A stretch of DNA of 50,218 nucleotides from Pirellulales bacterium (lineage in GTDB: Bacteria > Planctomycetota > Planctomycetia > Pirellulales > DATAWG01). Positions 42,814 through 48,977 of the stretch are shown here, piece after piece; position 1 is the stretch's first letter; the number at the start of each line of letters is the position of its first letter. Made by a program: the position numbers and the translations under genes. The stretch spans positions 1 through 50,218 of the forward strand of contig DASZFO010000378.1 of NCBI GenBank assembly GCA_035939775.1, in the 5' to 3' direction. A model generated the notes under the pieces. It saw only the letters and a list, made by a program, of their open reading frames with translations, was not told the DNA's origin and did no database searches.

Positions 42814-45800
42814 TCACGCGATGATTTCGATCGCGCCTGGTTCGACGAACAGCAGCCGCGCCGAGATTCGCTCGAGCGAAAGTGCGGTCAGCGCCGACAT
42901 CGCGCCACGGTAGGCTTGAATCTGCGGGCGGTAGAAACCGACTCGCTCAATAATCGCAGCTTCATCGCTCACCGCATCGGTCTTAAAATCGAGGATATCG
43001 ACCGCGACCAGCCGGTCGCCGCGATAGAACCTCGTCACGCGGTCCACCATGCCAAACACCAGCGAATTCTCTTGGCGAACGACAAACGACCACTCACGAT
43101 AGAGCTTCTTCGTCACGCTGTCGCCCGTTAGCTCGGCGCACACGTCCGCGGCGAAACCCAGTGTCGCTGGATCGAATCCCTTCTCGGATAGCGCGGCTGC
43201 CACGACTGGCCGCTCGAGCATGGCTCGAAAGCGCTTGATCTCCGCGGCCAGATCGATCTCGGGCGTCGCCAGCCTGGCCGCCAGCCGCAACAGATCGGCA
43301 TCGCCGGGAACGCCGTCTTCGAGCCAGCCAATTCGCTCAAACCAGGCATGGACGATCGATCCTCGCGTCATTCCGGCGACGGATTCCAAACGCAGATGGC
43401 GTCGGAGATCGACCTTCCCGGCTCCCTCCATTGCGGACGGGGTTCGGTAGTCGAGCCCTCGGCGACGCCGGCTGCCGGGGCGAAGTTCGAGGTGCAGATT
43501 CTCGACGAGTGGCGCAGCAGTGCGTTGATCCATCTCCTTTCCCTTTGGGAGAGGGTTAGGGTGAGGGGATGTGGCGATCGACCGTGATTCGCCCTCACCC
43601 CTGTTCGACAAGCTCACGGCAGGCTGGCCCTCTCCCGGAGGGAGAGGGAGGTTTTCAGAATCAGCCGCCCACCTTGCATCGCCGTGCCGGTAGAGCGTCG
43701 TCTCCGGCTCGGCCGCTTTTCCTCCGGCCAGCGCGCCGCGGAGCAGGCCCGCGTAGGTCTTGGGCCAGGTCTTCTCGTTCTGCCGCGACGGGGCGATGAT
43801 CATATCGAGCGCGTGAACGGCGCGGGTCATCGCTACATACAGCACGCAGAGAGATTCGTTGACGATTTGATTGGGCCACTCGGCAAACATGCGACGGAAC
43901 TCGGCGGGCAACAGCCTTTGGACGGTCTCGCCTGTGTAGCGGCAGACGCGGCGAATCGGTTCCAGCGCCGTCGGGCGATCGACCACCACACGCGGCGTTT
44001 GACGCCCCTTCAAATTCACGTCCAGCTCGGGCAGCACGACGAAGTCGAACTGCAAGCCTTTCGCCTGGTGGACCGTCATCACGCGGACCTTCGCGGCCGT
44101 CGGATCCTCGATCCGCCGCGAATTGACCTCGGCGATGAATTCGTCGGTGCGGCGGATTCGCCCATCATCGAGAGCGTACGCCAATTCGACCAATTGCAAG
44201 AGGCGACTCAAATCGCGAGGTCCGCAGAACGGGGCCAGTGACTTGACCCAATCGTAAATCGTTCGTCCGTAGCCGTCTGACGCCAACCGTTCGCGCATTT
44301 CAAGCGCCAATTTCCCGGCCAAGGCCTCATCGTCGAATCGCTCGAATCCCACGGCCGGGCCTAGCGGCGACGCAGCCACGTGGAATCGGGCCGCCGTGTC
44401 CCCAGGGTGATCGGTCAGCTTGAGGAGCGAAAGCACGAGTTGCACGGCGACGGAATCCGTCAGCGGATTGCCTCCTTCTTCGCTCGCGAACACCTTATGC
44501 TTGCTGCGCAGCTCGAAAATCATTTTCGCCACGACCTCGTTCCGCCGCACAAGAACCCCCATCGTGCGCTCGGGATTCTGACGAGCGATCTCGGCGACGT
44601 GCCGGGCCGCGAATTCCAGCGTGACAATCCCTTGCTTCTCACCTTCTCTGGCCGCGGGCGCGACAAGCAATCGGCATCGCCCCGCCAATTCAGTTCGTGC
44701 GGTCGTATGGTGCGCAAAGCGATTCGCCCACGCTTTGGTTACCTCGGGAAACCCATCGACCGCCGGGTTGGCGGCTAGATCGGAAAAGACGCGATTGACC
44801 GTGTCGATCACGACTTGCGCCGAGCGATAGCTTTCGACTAACGAACCCTGGGCCACGCCGGAAAGTTGCGTGACGGCGGAATCGAAGATTTCCGCGACTC
44901 CGCCGCGCCAGCCGTAAATTGCCTGCTTCACGTCGCCGACGCAAAAGAACGATTGACCGCCACCAGGCGCCGTCACGCGCCGGGCGAACGGAAGCAGCAC
45001 TTTCCATTGCGCAAGCGAAGTGTCTTGGAATTCATCCAACAGTAAATGCGACACGGGTCCGTCGAGCCGATAAGCCAAGCCGTCCAAGTGCCGCTCGGTA
45101 AACGCGTCGGCCAGAATCCGCGTCACGTCGTCGAACCGCAGCACTCGCCGCGCCGTCTTGAGCCGCTCGTACGCCGCGTGAAAATGCGAAAGCATCCGCC
45201 AGGTCCCTTCCGTCTGGTCCGCCAAACGCGCGACGAGGACTCCGCGGGCGTGCTCGATCAGCGGCCGATAGGCCTCGGCCACGTGCGGCTCGATGATTTT
45301 TCTCGAATAGGTCTCAGCGCCGGCCGAAATCGCGCAGGCAAGTCCTTTGCTCAGCAGCACGTCCCAATCCTGCCGGTCGGCGTTGGCGAGATCGCTGATT
45401 CGGGCTTTCTCGAAGTTCTTGTCCGCAAAGGCAGGCAGGGTGGCCAATTGGGTGAGCGCGTCGGCTAGCGCGGTGGCATCCAAGCGCGGCGGTCGGCCGA
45501 GAGTCGCCCAGGCCTCCGGCGGAGCGTCCAGAAAGACGTCGTGCATCGCATCGACGGCGTCCATGATCTGCCGCGTCACCGAGCGCGTGGCCTCGCCCTT
45601 GCTCAACAGATGCACGAGCCGCACGCAGTCGTTCGAGTCCGTCTTTTCGAGCAGCTCTTGAATCGCCTCCTCGCGCAATCTCCGGTCCTCGAGCGTTTCG
45701 ACGATCCGCCAACCGAGCGGCAGACCGAGTTCCAGGTTGAAGCTTCCGGCCATTTGCACGAAGAAGCTGTCGAGCGTGCCGATTTGCAGCCGGTGCAACT

Positions 45801-46098
45801 GCTCGACCAGACCGCGCAACATGCGCGTGCATTCCGCCGGATTCATGTTCGAGCGGCCCAACTGAGGAGCGAGTTCGGCCAGTCGCGCGGCGTCGTCAAA
45901 GGCTTCCGCCAACCGAGTCAACACCCGCTCGAGAATCTCTCCGGCGGCCTTGCGCGCAAACGTGGCCGCGAGAATCTGATCGGGGGAATGCCCAGCCGCC
46001 GTCAATCCCAGATAGCGGTTCGACAGTTGAAATGTCTTCCCCGTTCCCGCCGATGCGCGGATGACGATGTGCGGAAAGGCGTTCTTGGCGGCGGTCAT
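42814..46098 (-). CDS. addA: AddA/RecB-type helicase-nuclease
   Basis: 1094 residues from ATG 46098, overlapping the addB stop as ATGA. UvrD/Rep helicase motifs: ASAGTGKT (15-22, Walker A), QILAATFARKAAGEI, LLLDEFQDTS (about 352-361), FFCVGDVKQAIYGWRGG, VMTVHQAKGLQFDFVVLPEL, LYVAMTRAVHAL. The C-terminal RecB nuclease has GSIVHAWFERI and VDILDFKTD (about 1030-1038), the D-x-x-D-x-K active site. It processes double-strand ends for RecA loading. About residues 816-854 are encoded by a palindromic repeat element and are likely a disordered loop (see findings). It pairs with addB. Confidence 0.9.
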   Translation of the reverse strand: MTAAKNAFPHIVIRASAGTGKTFQLSNRYLGLTAAGHSPDQILAATFARKAAGEILERVLTRLAEAFDDAARLAELAPQLGRSNMNPAECTRMLRGLVEQLHRLQIGTLDSFFVQMAGSFNLELGLPLGWRIVETLEDRRLREEAIQELLEKTDSNDCVRLVHLLSKGEATRSVTRQIMDAVDAMHDVFLDAPPEAWATLGRPPRLDATALADALTQLATLPAFADKNFEKARISDLANADRQDWDVLLSKGLACAISAGAETYSRKIIEPHVAEAYRPLIEHARGVLVARLADQTEGTWRMLSHFHAAYERLKTARRVLRFDDVTRILADAFTERHLDGLAYRLDGPVSHLLLDEFQDTSLAQWKVLLPFARRVTAPGGGQSFFCVGDVKQAIYGWRGGVAEIFDSAVTQLSGVAQGSLVESYRSAQVVIDTVNRVFSDLAANPAVDGFPEVTKAWANRFAHHTTARTELAGRCRLLVAPAAREGEKQGIVTLEFAARHVAEIARQNPERTMGVLVRRNEVVAKMIFELRSKHKVFASEEGGNPLTDSVAVQLVLSLLKLTDHPGDTAARFHVAASPLGPAVGFERFDDEALAGKLALEMRERLASDGYGRTIYDWVKSLAPFCGPRDLSRLLQLVELAYALDDGRIRRTDEFIAEVNSRRIEDPTAAKVRVMTVHQAKGLQFDFVVLPELDVNLKGRQTPRVVVDRPTALEPIRRVCRYTGETVQRLLPAEFRRMFAEWPNQIVNESLCVLYVAMTRAVHALDMIIAPSRQNEKTWPKTYAGLLRGALAGGKAAEPETTLYRHGDARWAADSENLPLPPGEGQPAVSLSNRGEGESRSIATSPHPNPLPKGKEMDQRTAAPLVENLHLELRPGSRRRRGLDYRTPSAMEGAGKVDLRRHLRLESVAGMTRGSIVHAWFERIGWLEDGVPGDADLLRLAARLATPEIDLAAEIKRFRAMLERPVVAAALSEKGFDPATLGFAADVCAELTGDSVTKKLYREWSFVVRQENSLVFGMVDRVTRFYRGDRLVAVDILDFKTDAVSDEAAIIERVGFYRPQIQAYRGAMSALTALSLERISARLLFVEPGAIEIIA
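43536..43651. repeat. palindromic element inside addA, reads PHPNPLPKGK in frame
   Basis: On the plus strand CCCTTTGGGAGAGGG then TTAGGGTGAGGGG, a 22-nt spacer, CCCTCACCCC, a variable block with GACAAGCTCACGGCAGG, and GCCCTCTCCC-GGAGGGAGAGGG. The arms are inverted copies. It keeps the addA frame open across about 39 codons, encoding LPLPPGEG, then SPHPNPLPKG. Confidence 0.85.
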
Positions 46099-48977
46099 TC
46101 GGCCTCCGGATCCGGATCGCCGGCCGTGCGGCCGGCAACGCCGAATTGATCGTCCTGGCAAATGGCGGCGAACTCCTCAAAGAAATCCGGCGGCGAAGCG
46201 GCCATCGGGAATTGGCCGAGACGGATCCCGCGCACGACCTCTTCCGCCATGCGATCGGCGGCGGCCAACTCCTCGGCAGTCCACGCGGCCAGTTCAAACC
46301 CGGTCTTTTCAAGAGCTTTAGGAATCAGCACGTAACCCAACTGCACGTCGCCGTTGATTTCGAGCGCTTTGACGAGATGCCGATAAAGCGGCAATTGCAG
46401 ATCGACCCATTCTCCGTGCCGCCGATGCACGGCGTCCGGCGTTTTCGCCGTTTCGGAAGACTTGTAGTCGAGCACCGCGTGCCGGCCGTCACGCTCGTTG
46501 AAATCGAGGCGATCGATGCGGCCACGGAGATAGACCGGCACGCCGTCGACCGGAAACGGCGCCTCAACGTCCAACACGTCGCGCTCGACGACTTTGATCT
46601 TCCATCCATCGCGGCGCCACGCCGCTTGTCGGACGGCGAACTCCGCGAGTCGCAGCTTCAGCAATTCAATCTGAACTCGCACCGCGGGCATCGGCGATTC
46701 GCCGAACTGCCGCGCTTGCAATGTGCCGAGAGTCAGGAATAGCTGCTGGCGGATTTCCTCGGGCGTCTCGGAGTCGCGCACGGGGTCCTCGCCGAACATG
46801 CGCAAAACGTCGTGCAGCAGCGTGCCAAACTGGCCGCCGTCCAGCTCGGGCGCCGAGTCGTCCAGCGCCCGCAATCGCAACCGGTGTCGCAAGTAGTAGC
46901 GATAGGGGCAGGCAAGATAATCTCGAAATTCGGTGACTTTCAAGGATTCGATGTCGCCCGGCGACGAGTCGATGGCCGGAATCGGCAGCGCCGAATCCTC
47001 GCGCCCGGGCCGCAACCCAGCGGCCAGCACCCTGCGTCGCCGAACTTCGCTCGGTCGCCGGAACAGCGCGACGGTTCGCCGGGCTAATTGGCTGTCGTCG
47101 CAAGCAAAGAGCAACCTGCTGGGAATCAGCGGACCGCCGTCGGCCGACCGCCGACCGGCAATGATCCGCAGCTCGGCTCGCGATGCCCCAAGCAGGGCCA
47201 GGGCATAGGCGTCGCGGGCATACCTCCGCTGGTCGTCTTCCAGACCCAGCCGCCGGCGCAGCGAGTTGGGCAGGAATCGGTCGCCACTTCGCGAAGCTGG
47301 AACGATTCCTTCGTTGAACCCCGTGACGATCATTGCCGGGGCGTCGTTCCAAGGCAATTCCAGCCAGCCGAGCAACTCAATTGCAGCCGAATCCGAGCGC
47401 GGCGGGATCGTTCCTCCTTCCAAACCGCGGAGCACGATCCGCAGTGCCTGAGCGCCGGTCACGAGCGGCGAAAGCTTTTCCGGAATCGCAACGTGCGCCT
47501 TGAGCACATCGAGGATCTGCCGGCAGGCAACGAGCACGGTCCGATCCGCCTCCGTCTTTTCGTCCATTGGCCGGCCGCCAAAGACCTGACTCACGATTTC
47601 GAGCGCCGGCTGCGCCCACTGATCGAGTGGCTGCGGCTTTCCGCGCAGCGGCGCCAGCAATCCGGCAAGCGCCCCTTGAACTCGTCGCACGACGTGCAGT
47701 GAATCCTCGTCGAGCGGCCAATTCTCTGGCACCCGCGCGGGCAAATGAGCTGAGAAATAGGCATCGAACGAAGCGAGCCAGTCGCGTTCCACCCTTTGGT
47801 CGCGGAGCCAGACCGCAACGGCCGGATGCCGCACGAGCGACGCGAGATCGCGAAACCGGCCGTGCTCCAAATAATCGGCGGCTTCGGCCAACAGTTGGTG
47901 CGGTCCGCTCCGTTCCAACGGCGCACCAACACTATAGCGCACGGGCAAGCCCGACTCCTCAAGCCGCTGATCGACATAGGGCGCAAGCCGCGTGTCTGGC
48001 ACGCCGATCACGATCTCTTCGGCTGAGTAACGTCCGTTGAGCGCGGCGAGAGCGCGGATCACGGCATCGGCCTGGTCCGCTGGCCCGTCGGCGATCTCGA
48101 TTTGCTTGTCGGATAGCGGCAATTCCATGTCCTGCCACTGCTCCGGACGTAAACCGCCGTGCTCGTCGAATCGTCCCGCAAGTTCGGACGGTGCGAATAC
48201 CAGCGCCGTCGCGCGCTCGGCGACTTGATCGAGCATCCGCCGCTGAGCCCGATTGAGATCGACCAGCCCGATGAGCACGATCCGTTTGTTGGTGCGGCAT
48301 TCGCGGTGATCGATCGCGTAGAGCCGCGCGGTTTGCTTGTCCCAGAGCTGCAACTCATCGAGCAGCCGCAAATAGCGCCGCTCCAAATCGGCGAGCAGCT
48401 TCCACCGCTCCGCCTCGTTGAAGCCGTCACACTCCGCGGCTTTCTCGAGGACCGCCGCGCAATCGACCCCGTCGGCCGACAACTCGCAGTGGAGATCGGC
48501 GAGCATCTTCCCCAGCGCTAGCCACGCCGGCAAATCATCCGTGCCGGGCAGATTGCGGACCAGCGGGGCGAGTTGCTCGCTTTTCATCCCTTGCAGTACC
48601 TTGACCCACGCCAGTTGCTGCACAAGATCGGAGGCGAACGGATGCTTTGCCTCATAGAGCAACTCGGGCAGGCTGCCCGGAGTGACGATCTGCGGAGGTG
48701 CGAGAACCAGCCCCCGCTCGGCAGCTTCTTCGACCAGCAATTCGAGCAACCGCCGCCGCGCCTGACCGCCCGGCAAGCAGACGATCACGTCGCTCAGATC
48801 AAGGTCGCCCTTTCGAGTTCCCTCTCCCTTTGGGAGAGGGTTAGGGTGAGGGTGCCGCGTCTCTACCTCTCGACTCCTCTCTCCGCCATGCCAAGTCGCA
48901 AATCTCTCTACAAACCATCGCGCAGCCTCAGGCAAGGCGGGTTTCGACCAATCGATCAACTCCATTTCGATCGGCAT
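46095..48977 (-). CDS. addB: AddB-like PD-(D/E)XK nuclease subunit
   Basis: 960 residues. The N-terminal half is the inactivated helicase-like scaffold (LPGGQARRRLLELLVEEAAERG, with no Walker A). AMIVTGFNEGIVPASRSGDRFLPNSLRRRLGL is typical for AddB. VTEFRDYLACPYRYYLRHRLRL leads into the nuclease domain, with GRIDRLDFNERDG and AVLDYKSSE (about residues 822-840). The C-terminal Cys trio of the iron-sulfur-bearing AddB proteins is missing; only ICQDD remains. Residues 41-53 (RHPHPNPLPKGEG) come from a repeat element. The stop overlaps the addA start by 4 nt, so the pair is coupled. The ATG at 48977 (or MELI at 48965) is uncertain. Confidence 0.85.
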   Translation of the reverse strand: MPIEMELIDWSKPALPEAARWFVERFATWHGGERSREVETRHPHPNPLPKGEGTRKGDLDLSDVIVCLPGGQARRRLLELLVEEAAERGLVLAPPQIVTPGSLPELLYEAKHPFASDLVQQLAWVKVLQGMKSEQLAPLVRNLPGTDDLPAWLALGKMLADLHCELSADGVDCAAVLEKAAECDGFNEAERWKLLADLERRYLRLLDELQLWDKQTARLYAIDHRECRTNKRIVLIGLVDLNRAQRRMLDQVAERATALVFAPSELAGRFDEHGGLRPEQWQDMELPLSDKQIEIADGPADQADAVIRALAALNGRYSAEEIVIGVPDTRLAPYVDQRLEESGLPVRYSVGAPLERSGPHQLLAEAADYLEHGRFRDLASLVRHPAVAVWLRDQRVERDWLASFDAYFSAHLPARVPENWPLDEDSLHVVRRVQGALAGLLAPLRGKPQPLDQWAQPALEIVSQVFGGRPMDEKTEADRTVLVACRQILDVLKAHVAIPEKLSPLVTGAQALRIVLRGLEGGTIPPRSDSAAIELLGWLELPWNDAPAMIVTGFNEGIVPASRSGDRFLPNSLRRRLGLEDDQRRYARDAYALALLGASRAELRIIAGRRSADGGPLIPSRLLFACDDSQLARRTVALFRRPSEVRRRRVLAAGLRPGREDSALPIPAIDSSPGDIESLKVTEFRDYLACPYRYYLRHRLRLRALDDSAPELDGGQFGTLLHDVLRMFGEDPVRDSETPEEIRQQLFLTLGTLQARQFGESPMPAVRVQIELLKLRLAEFAVRQAAWRRDGWKIKVVERDVLDVEAPFPVDGVPVYLRGRIDRLDFNERDGRHAVLDYKSSETAKTPDAVHRRHGEWVDLQLPLYRHLVKALEINGDVQLGYVLIPKALEKTGFELAAWTAEELAAADRMAEEVVRGIRLGQFPMAASPPDFFEEFAAICQDDQFGVAGRTAGDPDPEAE
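48820..48853. repeat. palindromic element inside addB, reads PHPNPLPKGE in frame
   Basis: CCCTCTCCC-TTT-GGGAGAGGG hairpin followed by TTAGGGTGAGGG on the plus strand. It is nearly the same as the first arm of the addA element, in the same orientation and the same coding phase. Confidence 0.85.

Follow-up and report, generated by a model that had tools for sequence, protein, structure and literature searches.

BoxC/PIT/TM-type repeat units in frame within the addA- and addB-like genes and other genes of a Pirellulales bacterium

Locus and structure of the element

The window, i.e. the whole stretch of DNA analysed, comprises 50,218 nt of contig DASZFO010000378.1 from a draft genome (384 contigs) of a Pirellulales bacterium (GCA_035939775.1). 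Two adjoining genes in it, encoding proteins similar to the AddA and AddB components of the AddAB enzyme of DNA-break repair, contain repeat units in frame. The features are as follows.

42814..46161, minus strand: addA-like gene (UvrD-family helicase, RecB/AddA-like helicase-nuclease), an ORF of 1115 residues that hosts the inverted pair
about 43535..43648, coding strand minus: BoxC/TM inverted pair in addA (type-B unit, spacer, type-A unit), encoding (N)LPLPPGEGQPAVSLSNRGEGESRSIATSPHPNPLPKGK(E)
43535..43567, plus strand: type-A unit of the addA pair, TCCTTTCCC TTT GGGAGAGGG TTA GGGTGAGGG
43592..43648, minus strand: type-B unit of the addA pair, CCCTCTCCC TCC GGGAGAGGG ... GGGTGAGGG, with a 24-nt insert preceding the third strand
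43600..43623, minus strand: nested 24-nt repeat CCTGCCGTGAGCTTGTCGAACAGG, eight codons in frame between the stem and the third strand of the type-B unit
46095..48977, minus strand: addB-like gene (PD-(D/E)XK nuclease), adjoining addA and hosting a second copy
48819..48855, minus strand: single type-A BoxC/TM unit in addB, in frame and encoding HPHPNPLPKGEGT

The presence of a GC-rich inverted element inside addA, as proposed in the first-pass annotation, is borne out by its arms (43536–43555 and 43628–43647), which are 85% complementary, and by the hairpin CCCTCTCCC-N3-GGGAGAGGG, which occurs three times in the window with up to three mismatches against an expectation of 0.06. The location given there (43536–43651) is correct apart from the exact ends, now placed at about 43535–43648; these boundaries were inferred from the repeat consensus because the set lacks a close relative whose site is empty, the nearest having 55–57% protein identity. 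The element is inverted as described, but instead of a simple palindrome it consists of two opposed units plus the internal 24-nt insert. The hairpin of the type-B unit is perfect, and the type-A unit has 9/9 third-strand triads and 7/9 hairpin pairs. The addB copy, which had been overlooked, reads HPHPNPLPKGEG and has a perfect hairpin (9/9) and all nine triads. The nested 24-mer occurs eight times in this genome (G000) when up to three mismatches are allowed; besides the addA site, contigs C64, C124, C142, C206, C227, C353 and C354 carry it, and it is in frame in several ORFs (GEGQPAVSLSN-GGEG).

The addA reading frame stays open through the element, as had been claimed, and the coding frame is the sole stop-free one among the six frames that pass through it. 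The extra residues are located at approximately 835–879 of the 1115-residue product; the range 816–854 proposed earlier corresponds to counting from a later start. A protein search of 58 genomes of the order identified clear orthologues of addA. In the nearest one, from the same family, the match stops at residue 835 and restarts at 880, and none of the aligned orthologues has such a loop at this site, which is occupied instead by a short variable linker. The helicase motifs (ASAGTGKT and DEFQDTS) and the nuclease motif (DFKTD) of AddA are intact, and the corresponding columns are mostly invariant. In addB, an insert of ∼27 residues is missing from 7/7 orthologues that can be aligned on both sides of it. 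This gap in the orthologues, together with the many genomic copies described below, confirms the proposed in-frame insertion into addA; neither orthologues with the same loop encoded by unrelated DNA nor a lack of other copies was encountered.

Copy number and identity of the repeat

A DNA search of the genome returned 82 similar places, and a search with the unit pattern returned 92 matches compared with one for a reversed-pattern control; the matches were merged into 85 elements for analysis. The many genomic copies that had been predicted are thus present, as 92 unit matches in about 85 elements. Many elements combine a TTA unit (type A) with an opposed CCG unit (type B), separated by a spacer of ∼20 nt, so that paired hairpin units are dispersed in many copies, as in REPINs. 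No target-site duplications were evident by eye in the element flanks, and no Rfam family matched the element above its gathering score.

Judged by its sequence, the repeat is not new: it is the BoxC/PIT/TM element, known from E. coli as an intrastrand-triplex motif. The units in addA and addB have the defining hairpin CCCTCTCCC-loop-GGGAGAGGG followed by the third strand GGGTGAGGG, and the copies in this genome reproduce the type A (TTA) and type B (CCG) variants in inverted pairs when compared with Table 1 of PMC4666352, which lists CCCTCTCCCTGTGGGAGAGGGCCGGGGTGAGGGC (type B) and CCCTCTCCCTTGAGGGAGAGGGTTAGGGTGAGGGT (type A) for E. coli. Unit sequence, A/B variants and inverted pairing are therefore all shared. 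In the same study, isolated BoxC/PIT/TM strands were reported to adopt a stable triplex in vitro, whereas footprinting did not show one in vivo; for the units described here, triplex formation is a potential of the sequence, and folding in the cell can only be surmised from it. The E. coli MG1655 copies were reported to be always intergenic, with no mobility genes nearby (PMC4666352). This is the main difference, since many copies here lie in frame within genes; intergenic location, however, was reported of the MG1655 copies and is not a property of the sequence family.

The suggestion that the element represents a planctomycete repeat family has to be abandoned. With the enterobacterial pair as the query, matches were obtained in 5358 of 5426 E. 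coli genomes (median of 17 places), and the matches listed from an exact scan of bacterial genomes include Proteobacteria, Cyanobacteria, Verrucomicrobia, Planctomycetes, Chloroflexi, Omnitrophota, Nitrospirota and others. Among these listed matches, 93 of 138 also contain the hairpin arm left out of the query. The distribution within the order is patchy, with the unit present in 26 of 58 genomes (0–79 exact copies each), and 48 of 294 genomes in a sample of the phylum contain it. One genome of 3.9 Mb in the phylum sample (G141) has 345 exact BoxC-type units, some of which are arrayed ∼173 bp apart; two further genomes of this sample with high copy numbers have 141 and 111 matches.

In-frame copies in other genes

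Scans of the elements spanned by long ORFs with Pfam and NCBIfam gave sixteen host genes with recognized domains around or adjoining an in-frame element, and the copies sit inside or between these domains. The hosts are AddA, AddB, two RND pumps, two UvrA proteins, an error-prone DNA polymerase III alpha subunit, CinA, glycerate kinase, GT87, FtsX, MtnA, YchF, OAH sulfhydrylase, MacB and DsbH; NuoH, BNR, TPR and PMT proteins are weaker cases. The ORF for the YchF-like GTPase (L006, on contig C354 of this genome, G000) holds two separate in-frame units.

Three relatives from the same order (G055, G030 and G020) contain 29–72 exact copies, and their sampled elements are nearly all located outside long ORFs; their GC contents are 0.56–0.63 compared with 0.62 here. 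Since these relatives keep the repeat nearly always intergenic, its coding use is a marked feature of this lineage and does not characterize the repeat in general. Within the open-licence literature searched, in-frame coding use of BoxC in this lineage appears to be undescribed; queries by sequence string or peptide returned nothing useful. In other phyla the unit is carried by ORFs for Mfd, PriA, ValRS, an ABC exporter and VgrG, in several frames, and the GEG frame described below is therefore a feature of the A/B pairs of this genome. The Mfd and PriA ORFs with an in-frame unit are those at loci L099 and L183.

Reading frame and length of gene-borne pairs

All 11 gene-borne pairs (11/11) are read in the Gly/Glu/Pro-rich frame GEG...PHPxPLP or a close variant (GEGRGEG...PHPNPLPKGEG), and ten of them have 2–4 open frames, usually about three, giving a product of 1/open of 2e-5. 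The alternative frames of the element read SLSLWERAGVRG or LTLTLSQRER. The length of every gene-borne pair is divisible by three, compared with 10 of 34 other pairs (from this genome, G055 and G030); Fisher's test gives p = 1.7e-5 with 12 genic pairs, including the unvalidated L009, and about 3.5e-5 (by hand arithmetic) with 11. The frame and length statistics depend on each other and on the choice of genes, which were picked because an ORF crosses the element; domain matches confirm most of the hosts, with weak domain support for one of the 11 pairs (L004, BNR repeats). The hairpin and triad matches are similar in genic and other copies.

Origin of the insertions

We consider it very probable that a BoxC pair was inserted in addA and a single unit in addB, and that the repeat spread by a route for which no mobiliser was identified, with those genic copies surviving that kept the frame and formed a harmless linker. 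A type B plus type A pair would have entered addA where a linker joins the helicase part to the nuclease part, while addB would have received a lone type-A unit; in each, the tail GGGTGAGGG following the CCCTCTCCC-GGGAGAGGG hairpin could fold back as a third strand. Copies in genes would have survived if the length of the element preserved the frame, with selection after insertion removing those that brought in a stop, shifted the frame or were read in a hydrophobic frame. The surviving frame would be a stop-free, hydrophilic and probably disordered Gly/Glu/Pro-rich linker. We infer that selection, rather than targeted insertion, sets the frame and that the proteins are made and active. The host proteins most likely remain functional, and the loop probably has no function of its own.

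That natural variants simply converged on Pro/Gly-rich linkers, making the DNA repeat a coincidence, would agree with the addA site being a variable linker among orthologues. Near-identical DNA is nevertheless found at dozens of unrelated places, many of them intergenic, while the reversed control is near zero; these DNA-level copies refute convergence, which we regard as having practically no chance of being correct. An assembly artefact that pasted the repeat into genes is just as implausible: the genome is indeed a draft of 384 contigs, but spacer and flanks differ from copy to copy, every gene-borne length preserves the frame and a single 50-kb contig contains two copies. A functional role, in which triplex DNA or the loop tunes repair enzymes and insertion favours repair genes, deserves more consideration, although we think it quite unlikely. 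Repair proteins (AddA, AddB, two UvrA and the error-prone polymerase) account for five of the 16–20 hosts, with a binomial probability of about 0.001–0.003 when a background of 5% is assumed; the unit is present in Mfd and PriA of other bacteria, other REPs have been reported inside uvrA, dnaE2 and recB (PMC3733652), and triplex potential is retained in the gene-borne copies. The background, however, is an assumption and the test is post hoc; the excess is suggestive, and its agreement with the REPs of PMC3733652 is striking but likewise post hoc. Proteins that are long, multidomain and rich in loops make easy targets for insertion, relatives rich in copies keep them outside genes, and the equality of triplex potential between genic copies and the rest may simply mean recent spread. 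A more specific proposal is that genes for the repair of stalled or broken DNA preferentially receive and keep a triplex repeat that has been reported to block DNA polymerase in vitro, linking the repeat to repair capacity. This is a speculation to which we give a lower probability still; if true, it would imply that genome instability and the repair proteins AddAB, UvrA and error-prone polymerase feed back on one another.

Insertion in frame into genes resembles what has been described for Rickettsia palindromic elements (RPEs), which are in frame in many unrelated genes that are kept open (PMC3733652). The comparison with Rickettsia made in the first-pass annotation is right as an analogy between coding palindromes but not as kinship: here too a palindromic repeat lies in frame in genes of unrelated function, and it works like an RPE without being classified as a member. 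The GTAG/CGTC REPs are likewise short palindromes or dimers in frame with many hosts for repair and replication, and in-gene copies were reported in uvrA, dnaE2 and recB (PMC3733652); the BoxC unit differs in having no GTAG/CGTC tag as far as seen and in not lying beside RAYT genes. BoxC, as a different repeat family, supports the earlier report of such insertions in repair genes. More generally, a widespread bacterial repeat that has been described as intergenic and tied to genome instability can yield new protein sequence with a clear frame rule, and about 16–20 genes in one genome provide a sizeable set for testing the tolerance of in-gene palindromes.

Movement of the repeat as a REP/REPIN by a RAYT (Y1) transposase, with the in-frame copies as by-catch, is unlikely, but it accounts for several observations. 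The unit size and the inverted-pair layout are REPIN-like, with two opposed hairpin units, a short spacer and a dispersed distribution, and the unit is present in 0/15 genomes of the order without Y1_Tnp compared with 26/43 that have the gene (Fisher p = 3e-5; within-family permutation p = 0.03). Within families, however, this association is weak, and genome size confounds it; it may reflect genome size and lineage, and we do not take it as causal. REPINs are paired REPs with a RAYT, whereas the unit is absent from the flanks of 24/24 Y1_Tnp loci inspected in element-bearing genomes, and a RAYT origin is disfavoured on this ground. The Y1_Tnp loci examined for repeats carry other inverted repeats, the GTAG tag is absent from the unit as far as seen, and 115 element loci of other bacteria contain no relative of the four Y1 proteins of this genome. 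No mobiliser of the BoxC unit was found, although RAYT/Y1 genes occur in the genome. The Y1_Tnp/RAYT genes at L263–L266 (contigs C309, C88, C100 and C165 of G000) have flanking repeats of their own, such as AAAAGGGGACATTCTACTTTT around the gene on C88.
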